DNA of 64,000 bases from Bacteroides sp. Marseille-P3684 (GTDB lineage: Bacteria; Bacteroidota; Bacteroidia; Bacteroidales; Bacteroidaceae): assembly GCF_900291465.1 (NCBI RefSeq), contig NZ_LT985808.1, positions 1,389,814 through 1,453,813 on the forward strand. Direction: 5' to 3'. Every line of letters begins with the position of its first letter. Position 1 is the stretch's first letter. The notes under the pieces are model-generated. The model had not been told where the DNA came from. It worked only from the letters and a program-made list of their open reading frames with translations, and made no database searches. This document shows positions 18,631-54,463 of the stretch, one piece after another. The translations under genes and the position numbers were made by a program.

Positions 18631-18884
18631 TTGCTATAATCTCCTCATACTTTCTCGACGACAGTCACCTCGTGTACTCTTATGGGTAATACCCTCAACC
18701 GCCCCTTCTCCCTTTCATCGTAAGTCGAGCTATCTGTCAAAAAGCAACCAATTCCTCTCATCCGCTGGACGAATTTATCCAAAAACACTATTTGTGCTAA
18801 CTCGCACTTTTCGAAAATCCGATAATCTGGAGACGAAACGTGAATGATTGCAAACGGAATGCCTGAAAGAAGCCTTTGATTTTA

Positions 18885-19016
18885 GAAAACTATACATTTC
18901 ATTTTCGGAAAATAGACAAAACGTGCCCGGAACAATATTGTTTCGCGAGCCAAACAATATAGTTTGAGGCGTCAAACAATATAGTTTCACCTGCCAAACA
19001 CTATTGTTTCGTGCTC
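18885..19016. repeat. 22-nt palindrome array A
   Basis: Four clear units begin at 18929, 18951, 18973 and 18995. Each is a 16-nt dyad such as CAAACAATATAGTTTG or CAAACACTATTGTTTC followed by a 6-nt linker (GCGAGC, AGGCGT, ACCTGC, GTGCTC). In the same phase, 18885-18906 (GAAAACTATACATTTC plus ATTTTC) looks like a degenerate unit. The period and layout are the same as in arrays at 30.8, 44.8 and 53.9 kb. Confidence 0.85.
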
Positions 19017-19195
19017 GGAAGTCAAATCTTTGGAAAATGGAAGCAAAAAGAAGTGAGTTTCACTCTCCCGAAGATGTGCCGTGTCAACAAATCGGAAGGT
19101 AATAAAAAGCATTGGTCAAGAGGGCTGGTGTATCCGGATGTAAGCCTATCCAATTCTAATGTGTGATATGGATACCCTTTTCGTTGAATCTGTAG

Positions 19196-19300
19196 CAAAG
19201 TGTATTTTGCAAATCGCCTGAGAAGGCCCTTCGAATCCACCAAACTGTATTTTGGTGCGAGGAAGGGCACTGTGGAGGGCTTCGTTTGACATTTTGTCAG
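19196..19300. repeat. dispersed repeat, second copy inverted at 44492-44605
   Basis: Bases 19196-19228 match the reverse complement of 44573-44605 at 31 of 33 positions by eye, and 19212-19233 match 44519-44540 directly at 21 of 22. The end, with CGTTTGACATTTTGTCAG, is the reverse complement of a related segment at 44492-44518. The copies are in opposite orientation and each is about 180 nt from a 22-nt palindrome array (A and C). Confidence 0.7.
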
Positions 19301-19526
19301 AAGGATAATTCGGGGTTGTACCTCTTTAAAGTTGGCTCAACCCCGACATTGTGAACGAATGTTCGTCGTGATTGACTATCTCAATAAAGCCTTTGAATGT
19401 GCATTTACTCGTATTTGGAGACGTGCAAATACTCGTATTTAGAGCGAATATTTCGAAATGTATTTGTGTAATTAGTTGTAGGTAAATGTTTTATGCTTGT
19501 TTTTAAGGAGGGGTCTGTTATTGATA

Positions 19527-19865: not shown

Positions 19866-19973
19866 AAGACAAAGGGGATTGTGAAATTCCCGAGAATAGA
19901 ATAGTTTAGTTAAGTCTAGTTTAGTTTTTGTGTTGGAAAAGCATCGTAAACATCCGTTTTCGATGCTTTTTTT
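19866..19973 (+). ncRNA. candidate small RNA (about 108 nt)
   Basis: A near-consensus promoter (19830-19860) is followed after about 70 nt by a strong intrinsic terminator (19937-19973), with no plausible coding sequence between. The transcript would contain a repeated element (TAGTTTAGTTAAG then TAGTTTAGTTTTTG) before the terminator hairpin. The alternative is a leader or attenuator whose downstream gene was displaced by the group II intron that begins about 16 nt after the T tract. Confidence 0.5.
19937..19973 (+). terminator. intrinsic terminator, target of the group II intron
   Basis: AAAAGCATCG (19937-19946) pairs perfectly with CGATGCTTTT (19961-19970), and the T tract runs to 19973. 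Class C group II introns insert just behind such hairpins, and the intron begins at about 19990. Confidence 0.85.
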
Positions 19974-19989
19974 AGTACGCTCGGCATGA

Positions 19990-21900
19990 GTGTTGTCTAA
20001 CGGGTGCAAGTCCCGAGTAAGCCCTAATAGCGGGAATTACATAGCCCCAGGCAAGGGTGTTCATCGCGAGGTGAAATCTGAAGGAAGCCGTCGGCAAACA
20101 TCTGGCCTAACGAACAGAAACTTCATACAAGGCATATGACCGTGGGTAAGATTGCTAAACAAATCGAAGCCCTATAGCTATTCGGAACGGTCGGTGTAGA
20201 TGAAGTAGGTATAAGATGGAAAGACAACGCCCTTATCCGAGGAGGTCTCACGGACACTTCGAATAGTTTTTTTTTTTTACGAAAGAAGTGGAGTAAAGCT
20301 TGTCGTGAGAAGTCAGCAGACGCCATAGTAGTGCAGCTGTCGATAGAGTTGCATGAAGGGCAGAACCTAACAATTAAACGATAGTAATTGAAACATACCA
20401 TATGAAGGACAGAATGCAGAAAACATTATCACGTTTTAATGGCTGCCCTCAAAGGAATAGGTCGGAAACCGAAAGATATGGGGGAGTGCAGACCTTTATG
20501 TGGATGTGTGAAGACAACATCGTGGAAGTACCATTCGACAAGGAACACCTTTTCGAGCAAATTCTCAGTCCGTCAAATCTCAACAGAGCCTACAAAACAG
20601 TGGTGAGAAACAAGGGATGTGGTGGTATCGACAAGATGTCGTGCGAGCAATTGCTCCCATGGCTCCTGACCAATAGGGAAATGCTCCTTAGTTCCTTGAT
20701 GGACGGCTCTTACCGTCCGAACCCGGTAAGAAGGGTAGAAATCCCCAAAGACAATGGCAAGATGCGCCTTTTAGGTATCCCCACCGTGATAGACCGATTG
20801 GTGCAACAAGCCATAAACCAAGTGTTGACTCCCATCTATGAGAACCAATTCTCCAAGACAAGCTACGGCTTCCGTCCGAGAAGAGGATGCCATGACGCAC
20901 TACGTGAAGCGCAGAGGATAATCAATGAAGGCTACGTATATGTTGTAGACCTTGACCTTGAACTCTTCTTCGACACGGTGTGCCACAGCAAGCTCATAGA
21001 AATCCTCAGCCGTACCATAAAAGACGGCAGAGTGGTCAGTCTTATACATAAGTATCTCCGTAGCGGTGTAATGAATAAAGGCTTGTTTGAAGCGAGCGAG
21101 GAAGGAACTCCCCAAGGAGGTCCGCTAAGTCCCTTGTTGAGCAACATTATGCTCAATGAACTGGACAAAGAGCTGGAACTCAGAGGCCTCCCTTTTGTGC
21201 GCTATGCGGATGACTCGATGATATTCTGCAGGTCCCGAAGGGCAGCAATGCGAGTGAAGGAGAGCATAACCCGATTTATAGAGAACAATCTATATCTCAA
21301 AGTCAACCAGGAGAAGACCGTAGTGTCGTATGTGCGCGGAGTGAAATATCTCGGCTATTCCTTTAATGTAATGAAAGGTAAATGCCAACTTACGGTACAC
21401 CCGACATCCAAAGCCAAGATGAAGTCAAGACTAAAAGAACTGACAAGTCGCAGCAATGGATGGGGATATTCCAAGAGAAAGCAAAAGCTCAAAGAATACA
21501 TAAGAGGATGGGTCGGCTATTATCATCTTGCCAATATGAAACGTCTTCTACTTACCACTGACGAATGGTTAAGGCGTAGAATACGTATGTGTATATGGAA
21601 AGCATGGAAGAAAGTCAAGACAAAAGTGGCAAACCTCATTAGATGCGGTATCGATAAGTACAAGGCATATGAATGGGGTAATACTCGCAAGGGCTGCTGG
21701 CGCATAGCAGACAGCCACATAATGCACAGGGCAATCACAAATGAGAACTTGCGCAAAGCAGGGTATGCTACTTTAATGGGTGAATATCTCGAATGGTACC
21801 CAAAATAGGAACCGCCGTATGCGGAACCGCATGTACGGTGGTGTGAGAGGACGGAAAACGAAAGTAGGAAGAAAACTACGTCGTTTTCCTCCTACTCGAT
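19990..21900 (+). mobile_element. complete group II intron, class C-like
   Basis: The 5' end is placed near 19990 (GTGTTGTC, resembling the GUGYG start), with structured RNA to 20401, the maturase at 20402-21808, a domain V-like hairpin at 21810-21843 (CCGCCGTATGCGG pairing with CCGCATGTACGGTGG), a domain VI hairpin at 21863-21895 and a 3' end CGAT at 21900. The 3' end is fixed by the loss of identity with copy 1. Insertion behind a terminator and a maturase without an HNH domain fit class C. The exact 5' boundary is uncertain by some bases. Confidence 0.88.
20402..21808 (+). CDS. ltrA: group II intron reverse transcriptase/maturase
   Basis: The 468-residue protein combines a reverse transcriptase (RT blocks: LLGIPTVIDRLVQQAI, VVDLDLELFFDTV with catalytic Asp, EGTPQGGPLSPLLSNI, and RYADDSMIFC with the YADD catalytic pair at 268-271), a thumb/maturase domain (about 330-410, WVGYYHLANM) and the C-terminal WRIADS tail. 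It has no HNH endonuclease domain, so mobility would rely on single-stranded or replication-associated target DNA. It helps the intron RNA fold and splice, then copies it into new sites. All key residues are present, so it is probably active. It lies inside the intron, in domain IV. Confidence 0.95.
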   Translation: MKDRMQKTLSRFNGCPQRNRSETERYGGVQTFMWMCEDNIVEVPFDKEHLFEQILSPSNLNRAYKTVVRNKGCGGIDKMSCEQLLPWLLTNREMLLSSLMDGSYRPNPVRRVEIPKDNGKMRLLGIPTVIDRLVQQAINQVLTPIYENQFSKTSYGFRPRRGCHDALREAQRIINEGYVYVVDLDLELFFDTVCHSKLIEILSRTIKDGRVVSLIHKYLRSGVMNKGLFEASEEGTPQGGPLSPLLSNIMLNELDKELELRGLPFVRYADDSMIFCRSRRAAMRVKESITRFIENNLYLKVNQEKTVVSYVRGVKYLGYSFNVMKGKCQLTVHPTSKAKMKSRLKELTSRSNGWGYSKRKQKLKEYIRGWVGYYHLANMKRLLLTTDEWLRRRIRMCIWKAWKKVKTKVANLIRCGIDKYKAYEWGNTRKGCWRIADSHIMHRAITNENLRKAGYATLMGEYLEWYPK

Positions 21901-30724: not shown

Positions 30725-30788
30725 TGTTTGTATCCGGAGGACTGGAGGCACGTGCCTTTGGCGTGATAGACATGTGCCCTGTGTCAAT

Positions 30789-30942
30789 CAGGAGCCTGCC
30801 TTTGACAGACCTAAGTATAATACTTAGGGGGGCAAAGTATAATACTTAGGTAGGCTAAGTATAATACTTAGGTCTATCTATCCCTGGTACGTATCACGTC
30901 CATCACGGGTAAGTATCGCGTTTATCACGGGTAAGTCAGTAA
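30789..30942. repeat. 22-nt palindrome array B
   Basis: Units begin every 22 nt at 30789, 30811, 30833, 30855, 30877, 30899 and 30921. Those at 30811 and 30855 hold the perfect 17-nt palindrome CTAAGTATAATACTTAG, and 30833 is CAAAGTATAATACTTAG. The last three share a different sequence (consensus TATCACGGGTAAGTATC). The first, at 30789, ends in CTTTG and carries the linker ACAGAC. The same phase is kept throughout. Confidence 0.82.
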
Positions 30943-44347: not shown

Positions 44348-44491
44348 TCTCTACTTTTTGACGTCTGCAAGGTATACATATTTATTTCATAAATCAATGA
44401 TTTACGAATATATTTTCGACGATGGACGACAAGTGGTTTTCGATGCTTGAAGCGATTGCAAACTTTTCGGTTTTCTCCTGTCAAGGGATGA

Positions 44492-44605
44492 AATGACAAA
44501 GTGTCAAAACGTCAAACGAATCGCCTGAGAATGCCCTTCGTTGCACCCGACGGCGAGCTTGTGCGTAAAAACGGCCTTTTCAAGCGATTTGCAAAATACA
44601 CTTTG
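44492..44605. repeat. dispersed repeat, inverted copy of 19196-19300
   Basis: Contains TGACAAAGTGTCAAAACG, then AATCGCCTGAGAATGCCC, and at its end the reverse complement of the same motif (GGCCTTTTCAAGCGATTTGC), so it can also fold into a long hairpin. It matches the repeat at 19.2 kb in opposite orientation and precedes array C by about 185 nt. No gene was seen in 44348-45145. Confidence 0.7.
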
Positions 44606-44791
44606 CTTGAAAATAGGGCTGTCAGATGTCGTTTTTGAGGAATTTGTGGTACTTTGGAAGGTGTACTGTTAAAGCGGAGGCGAATAAACTGTGCAAAATA
44701 ACAGTTCTAAAAATGAAGTGTCCGCGCTTCTTTTGGAACGCAGATGTCTGGAATTTTTCTTTGCTGTTCTCTTTTCTTTACATCGACGGAC

Positions 44792-44901
44792 GAAACAATA
44801 TTGTTTCATCGGTCAAACAATATTGTTTCAAGAGTCAAACACTTGTGTTTGGAAGCTCAAACAATATTGTTTCGCGCATGAAAAAGAAGTGTTTGAGGTT
44901 A
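44792..44901. repeat. 22-nt palindrome array C
   Basis: Five units begin at 44792, 44814, 44836, 44858 and 44880. Cores include GAAACAATATTGTTTC (twice as [C/G]AAACAATATTGTTTC), CAAACACTTGTGTTTG and the degenerate GAAAAAGAAGTGTTTG, with linkers ATCGGT, AAGAGT, GAAGCT, GCGCAT and AGGTTA. The layout equals array A. Confidence 0.85.
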
Positions 44902-45145
44902 ATAAATATAAAACGAATAGGCGTTGTAGAAGTTTCTTGTTAATCGGATTTAGCTTTTGCCCGCTGGAAGGAGGAGTTTTTCAAAAGTACGCGTTAGCTG
45001 AAAACGACGAATCGGGAAATTGTGTCAGGGAAACGGCTTGTTTGCCTCTCAGATTGTCAATGGGTGAGGAGGGGGTTGCCTGTTCTGTCCCGATGGGGGC
45101 TGCCGTGTCTGTGCTGATATGCAAAACGAGTTTTACTATTAATCT

Positions 45146-53890: not shown

Positions 53891-54463
53891 CAAACACCGT
53901 TGTCCGACGGATGGAACACAAGAGTTCGATTTGTCAAATGCATTAGTTTGACTCACCAAACACAAGCGTTTGACCTGACAAACATAGTAGTTTGATAGAC
54001 CAAAGTATAATACTTAGGTAGGCAAAGTATAATACTTAGGTAGGCAAAGTATAATACTTAGGTAGGCAAAGTATAATACTTAGGTAGGCAAAGTATAATA
54101 CTTAGGTAGGCAAAGTATAATACTTAGGTAGGCAAAGTATAATACTTAGGTAGGCAAAGTATAATACTTAGGTAGACAAAGTATAATACTTAGGTAGGCA
54201 AAGTATAATACTTAGGTAGGCAAAGTATAATACTTAGGTAGGCAAAGTATAATACTTAGGTAGACAAAGTATAATACTTAGGTAGACAAAGTATAATACT
54301 TAGGTAGACAAAGTATAATACTTAGGTAGGCAAAGTATAATACTTAGGTAGACAAAGTATAATACTTAGATATATCAAACTAATTACTTTGACAGGTCAA
54401 ACGCTTGTGTTTATCCGGTCAAAGACCTGTGTTTGCCCGGTCAAACGCGAATGTCCGGAGGGC
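53891..54463. repeat. 22-nt palindrome array D (about 25 units)
   Basis: Seventeen nearly identical units run from 54001 at exactly 22-nt steps to the last start at 54353 (that unit is 23 nt). Each has the core CAAAGTATAATACTTAG, with the 13-nt palindrome AAGTATAATACTT, and the linker GTAGG or GTAGA. Diverged units in the same phase lie before (53891, 53913, 53935, 53957, 53979, such as CAAACATAGTAGTTTG) and after (54376, 54398, 54420, and perhaps 54442, such as CAAACGCTTGTGTTTA). Five of the units end in GTAGA instead of GTAGG. The array fills the space between convergent genes. Confidence 0.92.

Follow-up and report, generated by a model that had tools for sequence, protein, structure and literature searches.

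Evenly spaced palindromic arrays of 22-bp pitch in a Bacteroides genome suggest an undescribed chromosome-organising system

The palindromic array at positions 53892–54456 of the window, by which we mean the whole 64,000-nucleotide stretch of DNA that was analysed, belongs to a family of at least 154 elements with a 22-bp pitch in the 3.7-Mb host genome. We observe a 22-bp pitch, dyad-symmetric units, a mostly intergenic location (66 elements examined), an even spacing of about 20 kb, a gradient of element type along the way from origin to terminus and, in related genera, arrays of identical pitch but different letters. The arrays suggest an undescribed chromosome-organising system, in which they would serve as sites bound by a putative protein while their letters turn over between species. 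We favour this reading with somewhat less than even confidence.

The original prediction described an array of about 25 units, 17 of them at exact 22-nt steps, with diverged units in the same phase on both sides. We count about 26 unit positions, and the array is the longest among the class B1 elements read. Its centre (54002–54375, no strand assigned, like both arms) holds 17 units AAAGTATAATACTT separated by 8-bp linkers, mostly AGGTAGGC or AGGTAGAC; their starts run from 54002 to 54354 in exact 22-bp steps (98% match, period 22, 16.8 copies). The left arm (53892–54001) comprises five diverged units of AAACACAAGCGTTT type that start at 53892, 53914, 53936, 53958 and 53980, in phase with the centre, and is partly an inverted copy of the right arm. 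In the right arm (54377–54456), four diverged units start at 54377, 54399, 54421 and 54443, with a phase offset of +1 base, and run in the opposite orientation to those on the left. The flanks are mutual inverted copies, as shown by a local alignment (40 columns) between the left arm and the reverse-complemented right arm. The array as a whole is a mosaic of A-like and B units. The proposed plan of a 16-nt core plus 6-nt linker stands as to its 22-bp period, whereas, counted strictly, AAAC..GTTT units follow a 14+8 plan and AAGTATNATACTT units a 13+9 plan; 16+6 differs from 14+8 because it includes the flanking C and G. Near-constant spacers are found inside the expanded array alone: in class A, 126 distinct linkers occur among 201 (64 loci). 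With linkers of 8–9 nt, against unique spacers of about 25–40 nt, the array is indeed unlike CRISPR.

Three further arrays had been announced in the window and were found, each with period 22, at 18931–19010, 30811–30873 and 44793–44873. The first lies in a class A element on the plus strand (18720–19310), a frame of about 570 bp with conserved left and right ends around a four-unit array (unit starts 18930, 18952, 18974 and 18996; conserved right end 19197–19299). The second is a class B2 element (30768–30913, no strand assigned), one of 27 aligned copies, with three AAGTATNATACTT cores starting at 30812, 30834 and 30856 between GC-rich flanks in 22-bp phase. The third is again of class A, in reverse orientation on the minus strand (44480–45060; unit starts 44793, 44815, 44837 and 44859; conserved right end 44502–44604). 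Random sequence does not yield such arrays: the pattern AAACN6GTTTN8AAACN6GTTT, with at most three mismatches, occurs 15 times in the window compared to a mean of 0.30 in dinucleotide shuffles, and 0 of 100 shuffles reached 15. At the gathering threshold, Rfam gave five matches in the window, none on an array; at E<=1 over eight loci, the sole match over an array was MIR5274, with 27 bits against a cut-off of 100. Elsewhere in the window, group II intron parts (Rfam D1–D4, Intron_gpII) lie at 138–228, 20060–20361 and 21810–21900, with an ORF at 20402–21808 between the latter two and a second copy of the intron's 3' part at the window start. A match to the Bacteroides sRNA BTnc049 (19869–19975) sits just before the group II intron, about 560 bp past the class A element.

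Genome-wide, the family divides into 65 class A, 28 class C, 14 class B1 and 34 class B2 elements (at least 141 typed) and 13 unsequenced frames. Class A mostly carries four AAACN6GTTT units (19% GC) inside a frame of about 570 bp with conserved ends; allowing one mismatch to the AAAC/GTTT ends, we counted four consecutive units in 44 of 64 loci, five in 13, three in six and six in one. Class C combines class-A-like frame ends with a GC-rich middle array of CGTACCGACGCGTCCGCACCAC type, also at 22-bp pitch; 14-mers of CAATTGTCAATTGT or CAATTGACAATTGA type, often 21 bp apart, adjoin class C frames (L337, L338, L339, L340). Class B1 has a AAGTATNATACTT centre of variable length with mostly AAAC..GTTT-type arms on one or both sides. 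Class B2 consists of three AAGTATNATACTT cores with GC-rich flanks in phase. Its 12 core positions are invariant in 81 of 81 aligned units, in contrast to a variable central base and diverged linkers; the 27 aligned copies came from a pattern with one mismatch over two units, and the other seven, found by the model outside the alignment from which it was built, all keep three intact cores at 22 bp. The number three is partly a matter of definition, since B2 was defined by three cores and the absence of AAAC..GTTT arms (704402, with four cores and GC-type flanks, was counted as B1). Frame ends are thus common to A and C, and a unit type to A and B1, whereas frames and B2 have the pitch alone in common. 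Within this genome, different palindromes occur in one and the same layout, as had been predicted: AAACN6GTTT, AAGTATNATACTT and GC-rich CGTACCGACGCGTCCG arrays all have a 22-bp pitch.

The figure of 154 is a lower bound because the searches scored the best 150 of 1082 frame candidates and the best 150 of 474 B-core candidates, and the spacing could change once missed elements are included. Among the 150 frame matches, 36 of the same places on the opposite strand and two weak extras (3464070, 3119211) were excluded, which left 112 places. That all 112 right-end matches are class A was ruled out, as class C elements and ends without an array are among them. Six places with no array or a partial match were dropped (460646, 965203, 1840521, 2926983, 3475918, 3563936); of the 106 frames left, 13 are unsequenced, 1261155 was assigned to class C by eye, and 671254 and 2199442 were classed individually. 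The B model search gave 129 matches that merged into 34 B2 and 14 B1 elements, with 1278667 excluded for its single core. Class A statistics refer to 64 loci chosen by the analyst, without L087, which holds N and a duplication.

The exact class A pair has 219 matches in the host genome and none in 14 same-genus genomes; among 101 genomes searched it is present in two, namely the host and one genome with a single match, and a genome contig scan for one class A pair returned no match. BLAST of the class A element of the window against 151 genomes of the family, the host included, gave just short matches in five others; the four of these that were examined looked like coding DNA and had no arrays. 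Judged by SecA, the closest of 80 loci listed belong to Bacteroides gallinarum, a Bacteroidaceae MAG and Bacteroides ndongoniae (82–83% identity). Nevertheless, other genera of the family have 22-bp units of their own, so that the idea of a layout kept under changing letters holds across genera as well. Blindly picked stretches of 20 further family genomes (318 kb), scanned for repeat lags with a score >=18 after removal of simple repeats, gave nine segments at lag 22, compared to a total of one at 15 other lags (13 to 35, not multiples of three). Part of these segments may be coding, because six of the nine lie under open frames of >=100 aa, three of them under frames of 664–855 aa. In stretches of six relatives (792 kb), some on contigs picked via weak matches and those of G019 and G022 picked blind, 14 segments appeared at lag 22 and seven over the other 15 lags; the stretches of G001 and G006 had no lag-22 array at the strict threshold. 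SecA neighbourhoods of named genomes held six lag-22 arrays in 833 kb of Bacteroidales versus one in 689 kb of other Bacteroidota, among them CCGTTTCCTAAGGAGGAAACGG in B. ndongoniae, while other families of the order gave two at lag 22 in 314 kb and an equal number at lag 23. Over the first three sets, 29 lag-22 arrays of relatives were collected; their dyad was significant in 12 at p<=0.02 and in 14 at p<=0.05, and an open frame of >=100 aa covered 12 of them and crossed none of the other 17.

Stronger than these scans of stretches are pair checks over whole genomes, which cover three other genera. Pairs of AACTNACGTNAGTT at 22 bp occur 107 times in G017 and in none of five other genomes, AAAGCTATGCTTT pairs 13 times forward and 11 times reverse in G019 and in none of five others, and TGACACCGA pairs 98 and 72 times in G022 and in neither of two others; backward controls for all three gave 0. 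In G022, a single contig, the 75 plus-strand loci are evenly spaced too, with two pairs closer than 8 kb versus 14.9 expected under uniform and 13.8 under jittered placement (0/3000), and all of these loci share sequence. Palindromic arrays with another pitch are also seen in relatives, at 21 (L148, L261, L262, L199, L202) and 23 (L149, L151), and in G011 (L129/L156) two different 22-bp arrays, of GTACTGCAGTAC and CAAACTATATAGGTTTG type, adjoin.

Along the host chromosome, the median gap between the at least 154 elements is 20.6 kb, and only 12 pairs are closer than 8 kb where 49.5 are expected (jitter 30–120 kb; 0/3000 as low). Split by type, A and C have no pair below 8 kb (5.5 expected; 2/3000 jitters), and frames and B1 have one (8.0 expected; 0/3000). 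Frames and B2 have one pair below 5 kb (6.4 expected; 17/3000), but their avoidance is not significant beyond that distance (9 vs 10.3 below 8 kb, 11 vs 12.9 below 10 kb). Avoidance is thus strong where two types have frame ends (A, C) or arm units (A, B1) in common and weak for frames and B2, and a general mutual avoidance of sequence-unrelated types was not upheld.

Element type also changes with chromosomal position. The GC skew, from 409 kb of sampled sequence, changes sign at about 0.55–0.6 Mb (origin) and about 2.4 Mb (terminus). Measured from the skew-defined origin, C lies at a median distance of 0.28 Mb, A at 0.91 Mb and B2 at 1.41 Mb (Kruskal-Wallis 7e-13), and A lies closer to the origin than B2 in both the right (P 0.0012) and the left arm (P 0.0008), with P values that ignore spatial clustering. 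Medians of the right and left arms match (A 0.90/0.91, B2 1.41/1.40 Mb), and moving the assumed origin and terminus by as much as 75 kb had little effect, as determined before two elements were added. Class C lies mostly on one arm (24/28; C closer than A in the left arm, P 0.055). When the axis was rotated over all positions, an equally strong separation arose in 11% of cases for C and B2 and in 5.5% for A and B2. Hence, the A-to-B2 gradient holds in each arm, while its fix on the origin–terminus axis itself is weak (rotation 0.05–0.11). No strand bias of the frames was seen, as judged from a superseded origin estimate of 0.3 Mb. The sole Bac_DnaA match (G000:C1:2947344-2947829, L126) is about 0.5 Mb away from the terminus and remote from the origin, both as defined by skew; dnaA (2.947 Mb) does not coincide with the skew minimum. 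According to a Hi-C study of gut bacteria, the origin is not systematically located at dnaA (PMC10197239), and this seems to be the case in the host genome as well.

In the reading that we favour, a predicted dimeric DNA-binding protein would occupy three to many palindromes per site, side by side. As 22 bp is about two helical turns, the bound dimers would lie on one face of the duplex, and a compact complex about every 20 kb may anchor, insulate or space the chromosome, acting as a domain border, an anchor or a supercoil barrier. Protein and sites would co-evolve fast, such that new letters would come in under an unchanged pitch and spacing. In matS/MatP and other macrodomain systems, palindromic protein sites are concentrated in one chromosome domain, with which the position of B2 towards the terminus may be compared (median about 1.4 Mb from the origin in both arms, but axis rotation 0.05–0.11); here, the sites are phased arrays rather than single sites, come in several types chromosome-wide and have letters that differ from species to species. 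In plasmid iterons and ParR/TubR-type centromere arrays, dimers are bound side by side on phased repeats; in contrast, the present arrays are spread about every 20 kb over the chromosome instead of lying at one site. We count against the organising-site reading the weak avoidance between frames and B2, the axis rotation of 5.5–11%, the mostly one-armed class C, the covariation of unit positions 6 and 9 described below, the limited palindromy and open-frame overlap of the relatives' arrays, and the absence of such arrays from the G001 and G006 stretches.

The main rival, which we regard as possible though rather unlikely, holds that the arrays are non-autonomous mobile or REP/MITE-like extragenic repeats, in lineage-own families copied by a putative transposase; the pitch would then stem from the way an enzyme makes or binds the units, and the spacing from target immunity or from recombination loss of close homologues. 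Homology-based exclusion of this kind is a live alternative because strong avoidance is found only between types that share sequence parts. A dispersed, multi-copy and lineage-restricted distribution, frames with conserved ends and the small number of elements in divergent gene pairs fit this explanation, too. On the other hand, class A copies have little sequence in common beyond short motifs, which is not what a recent burst would leave, and neither unrelated letters at the same pitch in several genera nor the origin-distance gradient of type are easily explained by mobility; some avoidance between frames and B2 is, moreover, seen below 5 kb. REP/BIME and REPIN-RAYT systems comprise many intergenic palindromic units, mosaics with linkers, a preference for gene 3' ends and lineage-specific letters, and REP/BIME units are GC-rich, 35–40 nt long and able to form stable stem-loops. 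The present elements resemble them as dispersed intergenic palindromic units in mosaic arrays (61 of 66 lie outside ORFs of >=80 aa), but differ in their fixed 22-bp pitch, even spacing, position-linked types, cores of 13–14 bp and class A units of low GC content. Since no PF01797 protein was found in the host genome (RAYT, Y1 transposase; 0 matches by a search that was positive in 5 of 14 control genomes, E. coli included), we rejected an identity with REPIN/RAYT. With MITEs the elements share short length, lack of coding, the conserved ends of class A frames and the inverted arms of the B1 array.

Word searches of the open-access literature, which provide weak evidence of absence, turned up no earlier description of this plan, and the attempt to assign the arrays to a described repeat family therefore gave no candidate. 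One partial likeness is BrickBuilt of Porphyromonas gingivalis, a bacterium of the same order as our host. BrickBuilt is a 23-nt minisatellite within a MITE, with 19 copies in one strain (PMC4596501; PMC5771137), and likewise places tandem units of comparable length, with a leader and a tail, between genes, in many copies and in a restricted lineage. As far as the relevant parts of its description go, its unit AGAYCATARTATCCTCTCRTRTG has neither a spacer nor the 14+8 dyad plan, unlike the period of 22 with dyad and linker seen here, its ends resemble IS5-family inverted repeats, and even spacing or positional typing are not reported (PMC4596501).

A transcription-linked role at gene ends, as for BIMEs, in which the arrays would act as supercoil buffers, gyrase sites, terminators or operators of a global regulator, appears unlikely. 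Using an ORF heuristic rather than gene calls, midpoints fall outside any ORF of >=80 aa for 25 of 28 class A and 36 of 38 class B elements. Class B prefers convergent genes (20/38, background 17/95) and is rare between divergent ones (4/38, background 29/95), as such a role would have it. Yet class A lies mostly in tandem gene pairs (17/28), and both even spacing and a change of type with chromosome position speak against it.

That RNA or cruciform hairpins are the functional form is very improbable. Single strands do fold better than shuffles (z -11.9 for the B1 array, -3.1 for the B2 and -2.2 for the class A element of the window), but the strong fold of the B1 array is expected because any palindrome array folds. 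Arm-to-arm pairing in B2 amounts to 72.1% of cells versus 72.3% in shuffles, and changes on both sides affect 98 cells versus 114.5 in shuffles, i.e. there is no compensatory excess; pairing covariation was not found in B2, local dyads included, and the right ends of 31 class A elements gave no consensus RNA structure. In class A units, position pair 6–9 covaries (0.838 vs 0.605), which two discrete unit alleles can explain, and pair 5–10 does not. Because B2 is symmetric without pairing covariation, dimeric protein sites on duplex DNA are favoured over RNA, and we rejected RNA or cruciforms as the main functional form. Plain slippage without function, named in the original prediction as a possible refutation, may fit the 17 almost identical central units of the B1 array but deserves hardly any credence for the family, with its at least 154 dispersed, evenly spaced elements and 34 B2 elements that keep three intact cores while linkers diverge.

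Going beyond protein-bound organising sites as such, we tentatively consider that Bacteroidaceae-type chromosomes might carry a distributed positional code, in which evenly spaced, 22-bp-pitched arrays of a putative protein are typed by origin distance (C close to the origin, A along the arms, B2 on the terminus side) and read by fast-evolving dimers, and which might organise chromosomes in which known condensins have not been found. The Hi-C study found no homologue of known condensins in its two Bacteroidetes, Bacteroides caecimuris and Muribaculum intestinale; a secondary-diagonal signal of arm alignment was nonetheless seen in B. caecimuris, for which its authors propose either distant homologues or new processes still to be found (PMC10197239). 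In related bacteria, evenly spaced and position-typed arrays offer a concrete candidate for one component of such a process, and one that can be tested. If their letters turn over between species while pitch and spacing stay, the arrays would represent a bacterial case of rapid co-evolution between a chromosomal protein and its own sites.
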